A program made the position numbers and the translations under genes. From an uncultured Intestinimonas sp. (GTDB lineage Bacteria > Bacillota > Clostridia > Oscillospirales > Oscillospiraceae), in NCBI RefSeq assembly GCF_944387725.1, contig NZ_CALXGA010000019.1:1-33236 (forward strand): DNA of 33,236 bases, written 5' to 3'. The notes under the pieces are model-generated. The model did no database searches, was not told where the DNA came from, and saw only the letters and a program-made list of their open reading frames with translations. Positions 17,064-21,870 of this stretch are shown piece by piece (position 1 is the stretch's first letter; every line of letters begins with the position of its first letter).

Positions 17064-19112
17064 ATGGATCAGTACATAGGGAAGCTGCTGGATAACCGCT
17101 ATGAGATCCTGGAGGTCATCGGCACAGGCGGAATGGCGGTGGTCTACAAGGCTCACTGCCACCGGCTCAACCGCAAGGTGGCCATCAAGATCCTGCGGGA
17201 TGATTTGGCCCGGGACGCCGAGTTCCGCCGCCGCTTCCACGACGAATCCCAGGCTGTGGCCATGCTCTCCCACCCCAACATCATGGCGGTGTACGATGTG
17301 AGCCGTTCCTCCGATGTGGAGTACATTGTGATGGAGCTCATCGACGGCATCACCCTCAAGCAGTATATGCAGAAGCGGGGGGGACCCCTGAGCTGGAAGG
17401 AGGCCCTCCACTTTATCACCCAGATCATGAAGGCCCTCTCCCACGCACACAGCCGGGGCATCATCCACCGGGACATCAAGCCCCAGAACATCATGGTCCT
17501 GCGGGACGGCAGCATCAAGGTCACCGACTTCGGCATTGCCCGGCTGGCCTCGGCCGCCCAGAACACCCTGACCCAGGAGGCCCTGGGCTCAGTCCATTAT
17601 ATCTCACCGGAGCAGGCCCGGGGCAGCCGCATCGACGCCCGCAGCGATATCTACTCCGCCGGGGTGGTGCTCTATGAGATGCTCACCGGCCGCCTGCCCT
17701 TTGAGGGGGATACCCCCGTGTCGGTGGCCATTCAGCACATCAGCTCCATCCCGCTGCCCCCCCGGGAGCTCAACCCAGACATCCCGGAGGCCCTGGAGGC
17801 CATCACCATGAAAGCCATGGCCCCCAATGTGGAAAATCGCTACCGCAGCGCCGATGAGATGCTGGCGGACCTGGAGGAGTTCCGAAAAAATCCCAGCATC
17901 AACTTTGACTACACCCCCGCCGATCTCATCCCACCCGACGGGGGGGCTGACGAGCCCACCCAGATCATCGACACCGGCCGCCGGAGCAGCCCGGTCCGCA
18001 CCCCGGAGCGCCGCCGGCCCCGCTCGGAGGTCCCGGAGCCTCCCCGGACCACCGAGTACCACCGGCGGAAGAGGCGGGGAGGGAGCATGTCGGTCCCCCT
18101 GGCCGTGGCCTCCATCCTGATCTTCATTGTGGGCATCGGCGTCCTGTTCTGGGTGGCCTTTTTCAGCAACAACTTCCAGCAGGAAAACTCCCGTTCCGTG
18201 CCCAATCTCATCAATAAGACTCTGGAAGAGGCCCGGAATGACCCAAGTGTGCAGGGCATCTTTACTGTCGTAGAGGGGGAACGTGTCCCCAGCGCCACAG
18301 TGGAGGAGGGCAGGATCATCTCCCAGGACCCCCAGCCCAGGTCGGTGGCTACCGGGGATGACCTGACCATCACCGTCACCGTCAGCAGCGGGGAAGAGCC
18401 CCTCTATATGCCGGAGCTGATGAACAAGGACTACCGGGAGGCCCAGCAGGAGCTTCGGACCATGGGACTTTCCAACATCACAGTCGAATCGGAGTACTCC
18501 GAAATCACCGAGGACTTTGTCAGCCGCACCGACCCCATGCCCGGCAGCACCATCACAACCGACACCCCGGTGATCATCTACGTCAGCCTGGGCCCGGAGC
18601 CGGTGGTGCGGACCATGCCGAATGTGGTGGGTGAGACCCTGGAGACCGCCCGGACCTGGCTGGAGGGCGCCAACGGCCTCAACCTGGTGGTGACAACCAC
18701 TGAGGTGGACAGCGAGGAACCCGCAGGCACCGTGGTCTACCAGAGCATCCCCGTGGGGGAGAGCGTGGAGGAGGGCACCAGCGTCATGCTTCAGGTCAGC
18801 AACGGTTCCGGGGCCCTGGAGGAGGAGACTCCCGCCGTCAGTGAGGAGCCAGAAGTCCCGCCGGACCCGGAGGCCAATTCTGTCCAGGTGGAGATCGCCC
18901 TGCCAAAGAACGGGGATTCCTCCGACATGGTGGCGGTACAGCTCAACGGAGGCAGCGGTTTCGTCTACAACCAGACCGTGGAGCGGAGGGTGAATCATGT
19001 GGTCTTCACCCTGACAGGCACCGGGAGCCACTCCTACAGCGTCTACTTCGACGGGGTCTACTCCCACAACATCACGGTGAACTTCGACACCGGGGCGGTG
19101 AACGGACCATGA
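17064..19112 (+). CDS. prkC: Membrane Ser/Thr kinase with PASTA domains, PrkC/PknB type
   Basis: The 682-residue kinase senses cell-wall material outside and phosphorylates proteins inside. The kinase domain (about 10-270) shows GTGGMAVVYKAH, VAIKIL with the ATP lysine, HRDIKPQN (about 135) and DFGIARL. A Pro/Arg-rich juxtamembrane linker leads to one membrane helix at about 344-367 (VPLAVASILIFIVGIGVLFW). Three PASTA repeats follow (from about 377, 452 and 515, opening SVPNLINKT, YMPELMNKD and TMPNVVGET). After an acidic linker there is an extra beta-type C-terminal domain (about 608-682) with no PASTA pattern. AAGGAGG at 17046-17052 drives translation. The stop overlaps rsgA (ATGA). Confidence 0.96.
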   Translation: MDQYIGKLLDNRYEILEVIGTGGMAVVYKAHCHRLNRKVAIKILRDDLARDAEFRRRFHDESQAVAMLSHPNIMAVYDVSRSSDVEYIVMELIDGITLKQYMQKRGGPLSWKEALHFITQIMKALSHAHSRGIIHRDIKPQNIMVLRDGSIKVTDFGIARLASAAQNTLTQEALGSVHYISPEQARGSRIDARSDIYSAGVVLYEMLTGRLPFEGDTPVSVAIQHISSIPLPPRELNPDIPEALEAITMKAMAPNVENRYRSADEMLADLEEFRKNPSINFDYTPADLIPPDGGADEPTQIIDTGRRSSPVRTPERRRPRSEVPEPPRTTEYHRRKRRGGSMSVPLAVASILIFIVGIGVLFWVAFFSNNFQQENSRSVPNLINKTLEEARNDPSVQGIFTVVEGERVPSATVEEGRIISQDPQPRSVATGDDLTITVTVSSGEEPLYMPELMNKDYREAQQELRTMGLSNITVESEYSEITEDFVSRTDPMPGSTITTDTPVIIYVSLGPEPVVRTMPNVVGETLETARTWLEGANGLNLVVTTTEVDSEEPAGTVVYQSIPVGESVEEGTSVMLQVSNGSGALEEETPAVSEEPEVPPDPEANSVQVEIALPKNGDSSDMVAVQLNGGSGFVYNQTVERRVNHVVFTLTGTGSHSYSVYFDGVYSHNITVNFDTGAVNGP

Positions 19113-20017
19113 GCCGGGAGAACGGCGTGATTCTCAAGGCCCTCAGCGGCTTTTACTATGTGGACGACGGCTCCGGCCGGACTGTGACCTGCCGGGCCCG
19201 GGGGAAATTCCGCCACCAGAGGATCACCCCCCTGGTGGGGGACCGGGTGTCCTTTACCCGCCTCACCGACGGGGTGGGGGCCCTGGAGGAGATTCTGCCC
19301 CGGAAAAACCGCTTCCAGCGCCCGGCGGTGGCCAACATCGACCAGCTGGTGCTGGTGGTCTCCGGGGCCGTCCCAGTGACCGACCCCTTCCTCATCGACC
19401 GGGTCACCGCCTTGGCAGACAGCAAGGAGGGATGCGGCTGTCTCATCTGCATCAACAAGTGCGATCTGGACCCGGCGGATACCCTCTATAAGACCTACAC
19501 CCAGGCGGGCTTTCTCACTCTGCGGGTCAGCGCCGCCACCGGGGAGGGCATGGAAGCCCTGTCTGCCGCAATAACTGGAAGGGTATCCGCCTTTACAGGA
19601 AACTCCGGCGTGGGCAAGTCCAGCATCCTCAATGCCCTGGAGCCCGGCTTCGGCCTCCAGGTGGGAGAGGTCAGCGAGAAGCTGGGCCGGGGCCGCCACA
19701 CCACCCGGCATGTGGAGCTCTACCGCCTGGGAAACGGCGCCATTGTGGCGGACACCCCCGGGTTCTCCTCCTTCGACACCGAGCGCATGGAGCTGCTGCG
19801 AAAGGAGGACCTGGCGATGGCCTTTCGGGAGTTCCGCCCCTACCTGGACCAATGCCGCTTTGTGGGCTGCTCCCATCGGAGAGAGCGGGGCTGCGCCGTA
19901 CTGGAGGCGGTGGAGCAGGGGGACATCCCGGTCAGCCGCCACGAGAGCTATCTGCGCCTCTACCAGCAGGCCAGCGAGGTCAAGGACTGGGAGCGCCGGG
20001 AGCCAGAGAAAAAATGA
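19109..20017 (+). CDS. rsgA: Ribosome small-subunit maturation GTPase RsgA
   Basis: RsgA is a circularly permuted GTPase that checks late 30S assembly. In 302 residues the order is an OB-fold (about 5-75, LSGFYYVDDG, CRARGKFR, PLVGDRVSF), then the G4 motif INKCDL (about 115), G1 TGNSGVGKSS (about 162), G3 DTPGFSSF, and a C-terminal zinc site CRFVGCSHRRERGC. The G4-before-G1 order is diagnostic. It ends just before the spoVM hairpin; in B. subtilis rpe and thiN lie between rsgA and spoVM, and they are absent here. Confidence 0.96.
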   Translation: MSRENGVILKALSGFYYVDDGSGRTVTCRARGKFRHQRITPLVGDRVSFTRLTDGVGALEEILPRKNRFQRPAVANIDQLVLVVSGAVPVTDPFLIDRVTALADSKEGCGCLICINKCDLDPADTLYKTYTQAGFLTLRVSAATGEGMEALSAAITGRVSAFTGNSGVGKSSILNALEPGFGLQVGEVSEKLGRGRHTTRHVELYRLGNGAIVADTPGFSSFDTERMELLRKEDLAMAFREFRPYLDQCRFVGCSHRRERGCAVLEAVEQGDIPVSRHESYLRLYQQASEVKDWERREPEKK

Positions 20018-20029
20018 GTGCGCACCCGC

Positions 20030-20088
20030 CGCCTCCTTCTGCGTATACTGGGATAGCGGTACCAGTCTACGGGGAAGGAGGCGTTTTT
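20030..20088 (+). promoter_or_regulatory. Terminator-like hairpin that contains the spoVM ribosome-binding site
   Basis: CGCCTCCTTC (20030-20039) pairs perfectly with GAAGGAGGCG (20074-20083). The stem continues inward as CGTA (20042-20045) with TACG (20068-20071) and ACTGG (20047-20051) with CCAGT (20062-20066), leaving a 10-base loop. TTTTT (20084-20088) follows at once, as in an intrinsic terminator. The 3' arm contains AAGGAGG (20075-20081), the only Shine-Dalgarno sequence for spoVM. Transcripts from rsgA would therefore end here, or read on with the site masked. A sporulation-type -10 (CGTATACT, 20042-20049) in the 5' arm could start RNA that lacks that arm; this last point is weak inference. 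Confidence 0.75.
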
Positions 20089-20089
20089 C

Positions 20090-20161
20090 TTGAAGATCGT
20101 GATTGTACGCTCCCCAAAGTGTCTGCGGGGCATTTTGAAGGCCCTCTTTGGCCTGCGCTGA
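20090..20161 (+). CDS. spoVM: Stage V sporulation protein SpoVM (23 residues)
   Basis: A 23-codon gene with a TTG start, 8 bases after AAGGAGG. It aligns without gaps to the first 23 residues of B. subtilis SpoVM (26 residues). Shared residues include Lys2, Pro9, Lys10, Leu12, Gly14, Ile15, Ala18 and Gly21, with conservative changes at 6, 7 and 17. Pro9 and the amphipathic helix after it (PKCLRGILKALFGLR) let SpoVM settle on the convex forespore membrane, where it recruits and anchors SpoIVA. Position after prkC-rsgA matches Bacillus. The gene lies just upstream of the SipL-like and SpoIVA genes. Cys11 and the short C-terminus differ from B. subtilis. Confidence 0.9.
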   Translation: MKIVIVRSPKCLRGILKALFGLR

Positions 20162-20238
20162 GCGGGAAGCGGCGGAAGCTCCGCCTCGGTTTGAAAAAGG
20201 ACGGTCTCTCCCGCCAAGGGAGGACGGGGGAAGGTTTC

Positions 20239-20281
20239 GGCTGTCGAAATGGTCCGAGGGACCTTTCGGCAGCCTAATTTT
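20239..20281 (+). terminator. Terminator after spoVM
   Basis: The arm from 20239 to 20255 (ggctgtcgaaatggtcc) pairs with 20259-20274 (ggacctttcggcagcc) through one G-U pair and one bulged base, with a 3-base loop. taatttt follows. It separates spoVM from the next promoter. The bases between the spoVM stop and this hairpin (20162-20238) hold only a small perfect hairpin, ggcgga-agc-tccgcc, and no gene. Confidence 0.82.
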
Positions 20282-20311
20282 GTCATAGCGGCCAGACCTT
20301 GTACATATGCT
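20282..20311 (+). promoter_or_regulatory. Sigma-E-like sporulation promoter for sipL-spoIVA
   Basis: GTCATAGC at 20282-20289 and CATATGCT at 20304-20311 are 14 bases apart. They resemble the Bacillus/Clostridium sigma-E boxes (about TCATATT and CATACAAT). Initiation near 20317 would leave a leader of about 27 bases with AAGGAG at 20329-20334. Both downstream genes are mother-cell coat genes that are sigma-E dependent in studied species, so the fit is biologically sensible. Assignment is by eye. Confidence 0.6.
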
Positions 20312-20343
20312 CCCTGTAGAAACGCTGCAAGGAGAGGAACGCT

Positions 20344-21870
20344 ATGGAGCTGGAACTGAAAACCACCCATCTCAACTGTTACGACACCCTTTTGGACACC
20401 ACCCTGTTCCAGGAGGAGACCCTGGAGAGCATCGTTCCCGACGCCTGTCCCGACATCCTGCGCATTGTGGACACGGAGGCGCTGGTCTGTCTCAAGAGCA
20501 AGGAGGCCCAGGAGGGACGGATGGAGGTGGCCGGAACCGCCCGGTGCGCCATCCTATATCTGCCCGACAGCGGCCAGGAGCTCCGCCGCATGACCGTGAG
20601 CATTCCCTTCACCTGCGCGGCGGAGGCCGCCGGCCTGAATCGGAGCTGCCGCCTCACCGCCGTCCCCCGGGTCCAGTCCGCCGACGCCCGGATGCTCAAT
20701 CCCCGCAAGGTCCTGACCCGGGTGAGCCTGGCTGTGGACCTTCAGGCCTTCGCCCCCCAGACCGCCAGCTTCTGCGACGGGGTGGAGTGCGAGAGCGACG
20801 CCGGCATCCAGCAGATGGGGGAGACCCAATCGGCCTGCCTGGTTGCTGCTGTAGAGGAGAAACCCTTTACCTTTTCTGACGACCTAAGCCTTTCTGGCTC
20901 CCGCCCGGTGGCGGAGGAGCTGCTGAAGACCCGGGCGGACCTGGTATGCAGCGAGTCCAAGATCATCGGCAACAAGCTCATCTTCAAGGGGGAGGCCGAC
21001 CTCCAGCTCCTTTACCGCGCCACGGACGGCAGCCTCTGCCCTGCCAGCTTTGAGCTGCCCTTCTCCCAGATCATGGAGGTCTCGGAGGTGGGGGAGGATG
21101 CAGACTGCGCCCTCCAGGTGACCCTCACAGGCTGTGAGTGCACCCTGGACGGGGAGGAGGGCCGCACCCTGTCCCTGTCCCTGTCCCTGCTGGCCCAGGC
21201 CGTGATCCGGGAGGAGCGGCAGGTGACGCTGCTCTCAGATATCTACAGCACGGCCTACCAGCTCACTGCAGAGCGGAAGCCATACACCTTCTACCGCCTG
21301 ATGGAGCACGCCCAGCGGCGGGTCACCGTCCGGGAGCTGCTGGAGACGGTCTCCCCGGTGCGGGAGGTCTGCGACGTCTATGTCAACGTAGGGGCCGTCG
21401 CCGCCGTCCGGGAGGGGGCCCAAGTGAACTTATCGGCTGAGACCGCCGTCACCGTGGTCTATCTGGCGGAGGATGGCAGCCTGGAGACCGCCCGGCGGGC
21501 TATTCCGGCGGCCTGCCCGGTGGAACTGCCGGAGGGCTCCGCCTGCACCTGCCGCTGTGTCTGCCCAGGGGAGCGGTTTGCCACCCCAACCGGCGGCGGC
21601 GTGGAGGTGCGCTACCCTCTGGATTTCCGCTATCTGGCCCTGATGCCCCACACTGCCACCGGCGTCTCGGATGTCCGGCTGGACGAGAGCGCCCCCCGGG
21701 ACACCGCCGGGCAGCCCTCCATCGTCCTGCGGCTGGTGGGGGAGGGGGAGCGGCTTTGGGACATCGCCAAGGCCTACGGCACCACCACCGAGGACATCGT
21801 CCAGGCCAATGCTCTGGGGGAAGAGGCCCCACCGGCGGGGCAGCTCCTGCTCATCCCCAAGAAGCGGTAA
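20344..21870 (+). CDS. sipL: SPOCS (DUF3794) and LysM protein, SipL/SpoVID-like
   Basis: The 508-residue protein has SPOCS/DUF3794-type segments: LFQEETLESIVPDACPDI near residue 20 and VSESK-like repeats such as TRADLVCSESKIIGNKLIFKGEADLQLLY near 200. It ends in one LysM domain (about 459-506, VGEGERLWDIAKAYGTTTEDIVQANAL). Clostridioides difficile SipL shares this architecture, and Bacillus SpoVID is its functional counterpart; both bind SpoIVA and tie coat to the spore surface. The next gene is spoIVA, 17 bases away, and spoVM is just upstream, so this role is likely. The symbol is by analogy. It should act in the mother cell at the forespore surface. Confidence 0.82.
   Translation: MELELKTTHLNCYDTLLDTTLFQEETLESIVPDACPDILRIVDTEALVCLKSKEAQEGRMEVAGTARCAILYLPDSGQELRRMTVSIPFTCAAEAAGLNRSCRLTAVPRVQSADARMLNPRKVLTRVSLAVDLQAFAPQTASFCDGVECESDAGIQQMGETQSACLVAAVEEKPFTFSDDLSLSGSRPVAEELLKTRADLVCSESKIIGNKLIFKGEADLQLLYRATDGSLCPASFELPFSQIMEVSEVGEDADCALQVTLTGCECTLDGEEGRTLSLSLSLLAQAVIREERQVTLLSDIYSTAYQLTAERKPYTFYRLMEHAQRRVTVRELLETVSPVREVCDVYVNVGAVAAVREGAQVNLSAETAVTVVYLAEDGSLETARRAIPAACPVELPEGSACTCRCVCPGERFATPTGGGVEVRYPLDFRYLALMPHTATGVSDVRLDESAPRDTAGQPSIVLRLVGEGERLWDIAKAYGTTTEDIVQANALGEEAPPAGQLLLIPKKR

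Follow-up and report, generated by a model that had tools for sequence, protein, structure and literature searches.

The rsgA–spoVM locus

The window analysed here is a stretch of 33,236 nucleotides from an uncultured Intestinimonas sp., and it carries on its forward strand the gene rsgA followed by a very short open reading frame (ORF) that resembles spoVM and begins with TTG (Table 1). The coding part of this ORF extends to position 20158 and its stop codon occupies 20159–20161. The NCBIfam model SpoVM_broad (NF033436) matches the 23-residue peptide with an E-value of 5.3e-5 and a score of 23.1 bits, which does not reach the curated cut-off of 31, and a Pfam search of the same peptide gave no match. 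When the NF033436 model was run against the organism's own genome, a single place was returned, which is this ORF, with an E-value of 0.089 and again below the cut-off. Within an alignment of 15 SpoVM-like peptides the residues P9, L16 and F20 are invariant, and it is from this alignment together with the neighbours, rsgA, a SipL-like gene and spoIVA, that the peptide is named SpoVM-like. Domain searches place a PASTA-kinase gene and rsgA upstream of the ORF, and a SPOCS/LysM (SipL-like) gene and spoIVA downstream. Also upstream lie two ORFs that we take to be rlmN-like and PP2C-like.

Between spoVM and the SipL-like gene there is a second strong hairpin (20239–20280), formed by GGCTGTCGAAA...TTTCGGCAGCC and followed by TAATTTT, which is present in this genome and in L002 and is absent from the other seven correctly oriented loci of the genus that were compared. 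The SipL-like gene is preceded by a sigma-E-type promoter composed of TCATA (20283–20287), N16 and CATATGCT (20304–20311), and boxes resembling this promoter occur in the nine correctly oriented loci compared in the genus.

Table 1. Features of the rsgA–spoVM region (window positions).
Feature	Position	Strand	Basis
rsgA	19109–20017	+	Pfam RsgA_GTPase 8.8e-47; TIGR00157 7.1e-62; stop codon 20015–20017
AC of the sigma-K-like −35 element	20024–20025	+	AC placement in relatives; C. difficile consensus
Outer stem, 5' arm, with anti-SD CCTCCTT	20030–20040	+	Fold; pairs counted across relatives
−10 element CGTATACTG, sigma-E/K type, forming the ascending upper stem	20042–20050	+	Variants in relatives at the same position
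Hairpin loop	20052–20061	+	Fold; predicted transcription start at ~20056 (from motif)
Descending upper stem (20062–20066, 20068–20071)	20062–20071	+	Fold
Outer stem, 3' arm, containing the SD	20073–20083	+	Fold
Shine-Dalgarno (SD) AAGGAGG of spoVM	20075–20081	+	Sequence
U-tract TTTTT, doubling as spacer from SD to start codon	20084–20088	+	Sequence
spoVM-like ORF, 23 aa, TTG start 20090–20092	20090–20161	+	NF033436 E 5.3e-5, below cut-off

A hairpin that contains the Shine-Dalgarno sequence

The gap between the two genes is filled by a hairpin of 54 bases, the first stem base of which lies 12 nt past the rsgA stop codon. Positions 20030–20039 (CGCCTCCTTC) pair perfectly over 10 bp with 20074–20083 (GAAGGAGGCG), and the complete hairpin comprises 20 pairs arranged as stacks of 11, 4 and 5 (20030–20040 with 20073–20083, 20042–20045 with 20068–20071 and 20047–20051 with 20062–20066) around a 10-nt loop. 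The initial annotation of this DNA had described a perfect 10-bp stem extended by two inner stems, with the SD in the descending arm, and its positions for the stem, the AAGGAGG, the TTTTT and the TTG were all exact on re-reading of the sequence. The region 20018–20100 folds with an MFE of −38.2 kcal/mol, to be compared with a mean of −25.7 (sd 3.16, z −3.96) for 200 dinucleotide shuffles, none of which is equally stable. As in an intrinsic terminator, a stable stem-loop of 20 pairs is followed directly by TTTTT. A simple terminator scan, which is restricted to loops of 3–8 nt, did not have the hairpin among its calls.

In computed folds the SD is sequestered in long transcripts, with a probability of being unpaired of 0.00 for RNAs starting at 19900, 19980, 20018 or 20030, and this value rises to 0.32–0.39 for RNAs starting at 20055–20057. 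In the model, an RNA that starts in the loop would have its SD freed yet not fully open, and the earlier claim that an RNA begun inside the hairpin leaves the site free is borne out in direction, though not to its full extent.

A putative mother-cell promoter across the hairpin

The sequence from just ahead of the hairpin into its ascending upper stem also has the appearance of a promoter, which in the window reads AC-N16-CGTATACTG, with a −10 element that is one letter off CATA. The spacer (20026–20041) consists mostly of the 5' arm of the terminator. In relatives the −10 element is found at an equal position in variants that include CATATACTG, CATATGCTG and CATAGACTG, and the pattern across loci, AC-N16/17-C(A/G)TA..CTG, has the CATA-type −10 and the AC at the usual spacing that characterise mother-cell (sigma-K/E) promoters. 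The named loci were assigned to the groups g40, g45 and g67 by reading of the peptide and the element. Outside g40, C(A/G)TA(T/G)(A/G)CTG or a close variant lies near the same place in 44 of the 46 loci tested, and 43 of these 44 have an AC 15–18 nt ahead of it, the exception being a locus with a truncated sequence. Within g40 an AC is found at 15–17 nt in 10 of 18 loci. The Evtepia-type loci L078, L082 and L084 have no match to the −10 motif. The predicted start of transcription, derived from the motif, is at ~20056, which is 7 nt past the −10 element and inside the loop. A simple scan for sigma-70 promoters across positions 19000–21000 found none.

In C. difficile the −35 element is AC for sigma-K and ATA for sigma-E, according to the part of PMC3789822 drawn on here. 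The spoVM promoter of the window looks sigma-K-like, since its −35 element is an AC that matches the sigma-K element of C. difficile. In contrast, spoVM of C. difficile itself is under sigma-E control and is cotranscribed with CD25622, as described in the section of PMC5607322 that was available. Expression of SpoVM in the mother cell would be the feature in common with both C. difficile and B. subtilis.

Proposed mode of action

Our interpretation is that positions 20024–20089 unite the terminator of rsgA, the promoter of spoVM and a mask over the SD in one stretch, and would thereby provide a gene start that is proof against read-through; we put the probability of this reading at about 0.7. 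When read from upstream, the element would bring transcription of the rsgA operon to an end by intrinsic termination, rsgA being a co-directional housekeeping gene whose transcript would stop at the hairpin. The promoter of spoVM would reside within the same element, with its −35 just ahead of the stem, the terminator 5' arm as its spacer, its −10 in the ascending upper stem and the start of transcription in the loop, and the 3' arm would serve as the SD with the U-tract as the spacer to the start codon. RNA derived from rsgA would end in the U-tract or, upon read-through, carry a masked SD. The RNA that begins in the loop during sporulation would neither terminate nor mask the SD, because the 5' arm is missing from it. 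The sequences themselves establish how the element is built, that it is conserved and that it goes with the upstream gene; from them we infer termination at the hairpin, a start site in the loop, a mother-cell sigma factor and silence of spoVM in growth.

If this is true, a packed genome would close one transcription unit and open another with different timing within ~65 bases, with insulation at the two levels of termination and translation and with no protein required. It is further predicted that sigma-K or sigma-E transcribes spoVM of this clade from within the loop. To each of the gene, terminator and promoter finders one third of such an element is visible. A promoter spacer with a second job represents a testable principle, and synthetic biology would gain from the arrangement a small module with built-in insulation.

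Distribution and alternative explanations

The genus was represented by 11 genomes, in 10 of which a hairpin with a paired SD folds. The exception is L002, the closest relative by RsgA (87%), where one arm has a G–G mismatch and the MFE prefers another fold in which the stem is not formed, despite the retention of the adjacent rsgA and of spoVM. Loss of the stem in a close relative that keeps spoVM was an observation that had been expected to speak against the element, and L002 touches on it, with the hairpin folding in 10 of the 11 genomes. Across Intestinimonas 90.1% of 253 cells pair. Covariation is weak, with changes on both sides at 3 pairs, a level that 74 of 500 shuffles equal. In L009 an extra T in the 5' arm is accompanied by an extra A in the 3' arm, which the covariation alignment does not register.

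A stronger signal is seen in the g67 clade, for which 10 sequences (g67 and named relatives) were chosen with intact stems and in which 90.8% of 250 cells pair. Changes on both sides occur in 15 cells at 5 pairs, and none of 500 shuffles reaches that number of cells; two of the five measures do not rise above the shuffles, namely the pairs with a change on both sides (57/500) and further pair types (475/500). Columns 58, 60 and 62, which belong to the SD stretch, switch between G–C and A–U together with their 5' partners. The covariation for which the initial annotation had suggested looking is present as compensatory changes in g67, including the SD stretch, and is weak in the genus from which the window comes.

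For the wider family, SpoVM was found by profile in 159 of 400 genomes, and the spoVM regions of 79 of these 159 were added to the initial loci. This gave 162 distinct loci, duplicate upstream sequences being counted once, after removal of L021, L022 and L024 (no SpoVM found), of L012 (an RsgA-like paralogue) and of 21 of 80 named loci that had no SpoVM in their retrieved DNA. What was counted was a strong hairpin whose 3' arm includes the SD, with four or more T among the 9 nt that precede the start codon, and rsgA was called adjacent when within 200 nt upstream of spoVM; these thresholds were reset after a first look, the first version having counted too few of the loci in which a 5' A-run is paired with the U-tract. 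The association of the hairpin with the upstream gene is clear. Among loci that have rsgA as the immediate upstream neighbour, 31 of 52 carry the strong form, compared with 1 of 71 loci in which rsgA lies at a greater distance and 4 of 39 in which the stretch contains no rsgA. Fisher's test on the first two classes gives 4e-14, a value to be read in the light of loci that are phylogenetically non-independent and of thresholds set after the first look. In g40 rsgA is adjacent in many loci and a clear terminator is mostly absent.

Elsewhere in the family, in numerous genera (loci L097–L103 and L115–L119 among others), a short membrane-type ORF with a LIACGCGCMRR-like end lies directly before spoVM, and no terminator is seen between the two, as if they formed one operon.

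The best of the alternatives is that the hairpin merely ends transcription of rsgA, with the SD placed in the 3' arm for lack of space and masking having no role, an account that we consider unlikely although it retains some weight. It draws on the g45/Evtepia group, which accounts for 9 of the 21 rsgA-adjacent loci that fall outside the count of 31. The six of these that were read closely (L078, L079, L080, L083, L085 and L241) have a terminator-like hairpin, which in five of the six contains the −10, followed by a separate SD, and spoVM is still there. Furthermore, little read-through would pass a strong terminator. Against this account, the SD lies in the arm across g1, g91, g87, g67, g77, g27 and L230 even as the letters of the stem differ, and in g67 the SD stretch changes jointly with the 5' arm; the spread of the SD-in-arm arrangement and the g67 co-changes fit either a plain terminator or masking. 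Judged by the sequences, it is not the masking of the SD that stays constant, given that the SD of Evtepia-type loci lies outside the terminator-like hairpin. Within our preferred reading of a combined element, the main function is probably insulation, with masking of the SD as a second layer that arose with compaction. The one-element switch of the initial annotation thus keeps its conserved hairpin with SD and U-tract, its pairing in one clade and a promoter with a predicted start in the loop, and is weakened by L002 and by the position of the SD in Evtepia.

Among Evtepia-type loci in general (L078–L085, L224, L240 and L241), a terminator-like hairpin follows rsgA, several have a CATAGACT-type −10 within this hairpin, and a separate SD is found downstream.

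In five loci of the g67 clade (L076, L210, L226, L237 and L242) a divergent ORF of 34–35 codons, equipped with a good SD, is found some 250 nt ahead of spoVM. Their hairpin elements fold at −15.7 to −22.5 kcal/mol, in comparison with −30.8 to −40.9 kcal/mol for all ten g67-clade relatives with a co-directional rsgA, and the promoter and a G-rich SD are retained in all five. No divergent ORF was present in the rsgA–spoVM gap of the five rsgA-adjacent relatives checked. In L209, where a second hairpin lies right behind rsgA, the stem is intermediate (−25.2 kcal/mol). An RsgA tree nests the four named weak-stem loci within the hairpin clade, and the weak-stem loci may represent one to three evolutionary events only. 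Insulation of spoVM from the rsgA operon, as had been proposed, agrees with the weak stems where divergent ORFs replace rsgA and is harder to reconcile with L002, whose stem is imperfect beside rsgA. The divergent ORFs themselves have ends similar to ...YVAYYPYLNG or ...KALIQFLFRS.

The same loci bear upon a second alternative, in which the dyad is a DNA operator bound over the promoter by a dimeric sporulation regulator and the RNA structure is incidental. The dyad does overlap the −10, and the layout before BlaI/MecI-family genes described below contains a TACA/TGTA-type dyad, which we take to be a potential operator. This explanation is nevertheless improbable, in that the letters of the stem vary among genera with the pairing maintained and G–U pairs used, a T-rich tract stands behind the stem, and the loci with a weak dyad are those in which protection against read-through alone is lost.

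Relation to known systems

Masking of an inner gene in transcripts that come from outside is a feature of fold-back inhibition in IS10 and of the IS200 leader, where the ribosome-binding site (RBS) is covered and the gene insulated. The two examples are transposon-borne, and the present element is likened to them in its masking logic.

A closer parallel is offered by phage T4, where long upstream transcripts of gene e (lysozyme), soc and I-TevI fold a hairpin that covers the RBS, and transcripts from internal late promoters, which do not contain the 5' strand, are translated (PMC3014915, PMC2988022, in the portions used here). This is the masking logic proposed for spoVM, with an internal promoter that frees the RBS, and in the computed folds the RBS of the long spoVM transcript is likewise paired. 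The differences are that in those portions of the T4 papers the hairpins are described as masking translation with no mention of a U-tract terminator, whereas the stem here is also a candidate terminator, and that the element here lies between chromosomal genes and has its 5' arm as the spacer of a putative developmental promoter.

The attenuator of repC on plasmid pT181 has AGGAG in the 3' half of an intrinsic terminator and exerts dual control of transcription and translation (PMC5435934, in the part consulted). By sequence and fold, the window has this placing of the RBS in common with pT181. In pT181 an antisense RNA decides on formation of the terminator, and in the window this role would fall to the choice of start site. 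A regulated attenuator of this kind, in which conditional antitermination of rsgA-operon RNA by a riboswitch- or antisense-like device makes spoVM, has the pT181 precedent in its favour and is very improbable here, as the stem follows the rsgA stop after 12 nt, which leaves little leader for an antiterminator, and Rfam gave zero matches in the window.

The initial annotation knew of no description of the switch that it proposed. The masking logic of the switch is long established from T4 (PMC3014915 and PMC2988022, in the portions used here). For the combination, no precedent was found among the matches listed in the open-licence literature and the excerpts consulted, which do not extend to the older T4 and IS10 work; they contained no description of a promoter, a terminator and an RBS in one hairpin, nor of a promoter spacer used as an anti-SD arm.

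Similar arrangements before other genes

Comparable layouts are found before several unrelated genes, some of the loci having been picked by eye from a list of pattern matches. The best sampled is DUF378, where 9 of the 10 Intestinimonas loci that were examined have a hairpin with a U-tract (G009 was outside the sample), 7 of these 9 having come from the hairpin pattern itself, so that the unbiased part amounts to 2 of 3 (L364 and L365 with the hairpin, L393 without). In the last of these, from G005, the fold is weaker (−17.8) and there is no U-tract. The promoter, GCATA or GTATA, N18 and (C/T)ATCCTA, is sigma-G-like and spans into the hairpin. In other genera a hairpin was called in 1 of 27 DUF378 loci (L370, with no U-tract), and several have a similar promoter. 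The DUF378 loci are L261, L274, L276, L282, L283, L286, L291, L363, L364, L365 and L393.

Half-size genes of the TauE/SafE family have a similar hairpin with GTATA/GCATA-N17-18-CATACTA or CAAACTA, in five loci that were all found through the pattern and one of which has no start codon at that spot (L259, L272, L275, L285 and L289). Before a BlaI/MecI-family regulator the promoter is TTGACA-N17-TAGTAT in five loci, four found through the pattern and one from an unbiased scan (L268, L273, L284, L287 and L326). It is possible that the long dyad of this family acts as operator, terminator and SD mask at once. Common to the DUF378, TauE and BlaI layouts is a promoter spacer that houses the 5' arm of the terminator, with the SD forming the 3' arm.

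These cases suggest, tentatively and at somewhat less than even odds, a general type of gene start, in which the promoter spacer, 16–18 nt that are largely unconstrained by sigma, would have become, in the course of evolution, the terminator arm complementary to the SD, with the SD itself becoming the opposite arm, leaving the gene open to its own promoter only. Such starts would have appeared ahead of unrelated genes with promoters of no fewer than three types, namely mother-cell (spoVM), sigma-G-like GCATA-N18-CATCCTA/CATACTA (DUF378 and TauE) and sigma-A TTGACA-N17-TAGTAT (the BlaI family).

Counts of the pattern give an idea of its frequency. CCTCC-N20-50-GGAGG-N1-6-T5 occurs 143 times in the 11 genomes, where its reversed form has 56 occurrences, with overlapping T-run matches counted repeatedly in these figures. 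There are 124 sites of the form GGAGG-N1-3-T5-N0-2-ATG, and 31 of them have CCTCC 20–50 nt upstream (overlap counted by eye), an enrichment over the 10.9 expected from a background of 0.0875 in the G001 sample; the 31 sites may include some in coding sequence. Across 800 kb of G001, with a crude gene caller, loose criteria for an SD within a terminator select 17 of 429 genes against 9.55 in shuffles, and tight criteria select 3 of 429 against 1.05 expected. The layout is rare in this sample, and it is not a feature of genes in general.

An SD-bearing hairpin with a U-tract also stands before the start of EF-G-like, cytidylate-kinase-like, D-Ala-D-Ala-ligase-like, ABC-transporter and recombinase genes, at the loci L258 (contig C3 of the organism's own genome), L260 (a weak hairpin), L266, L270, L277 and L288.
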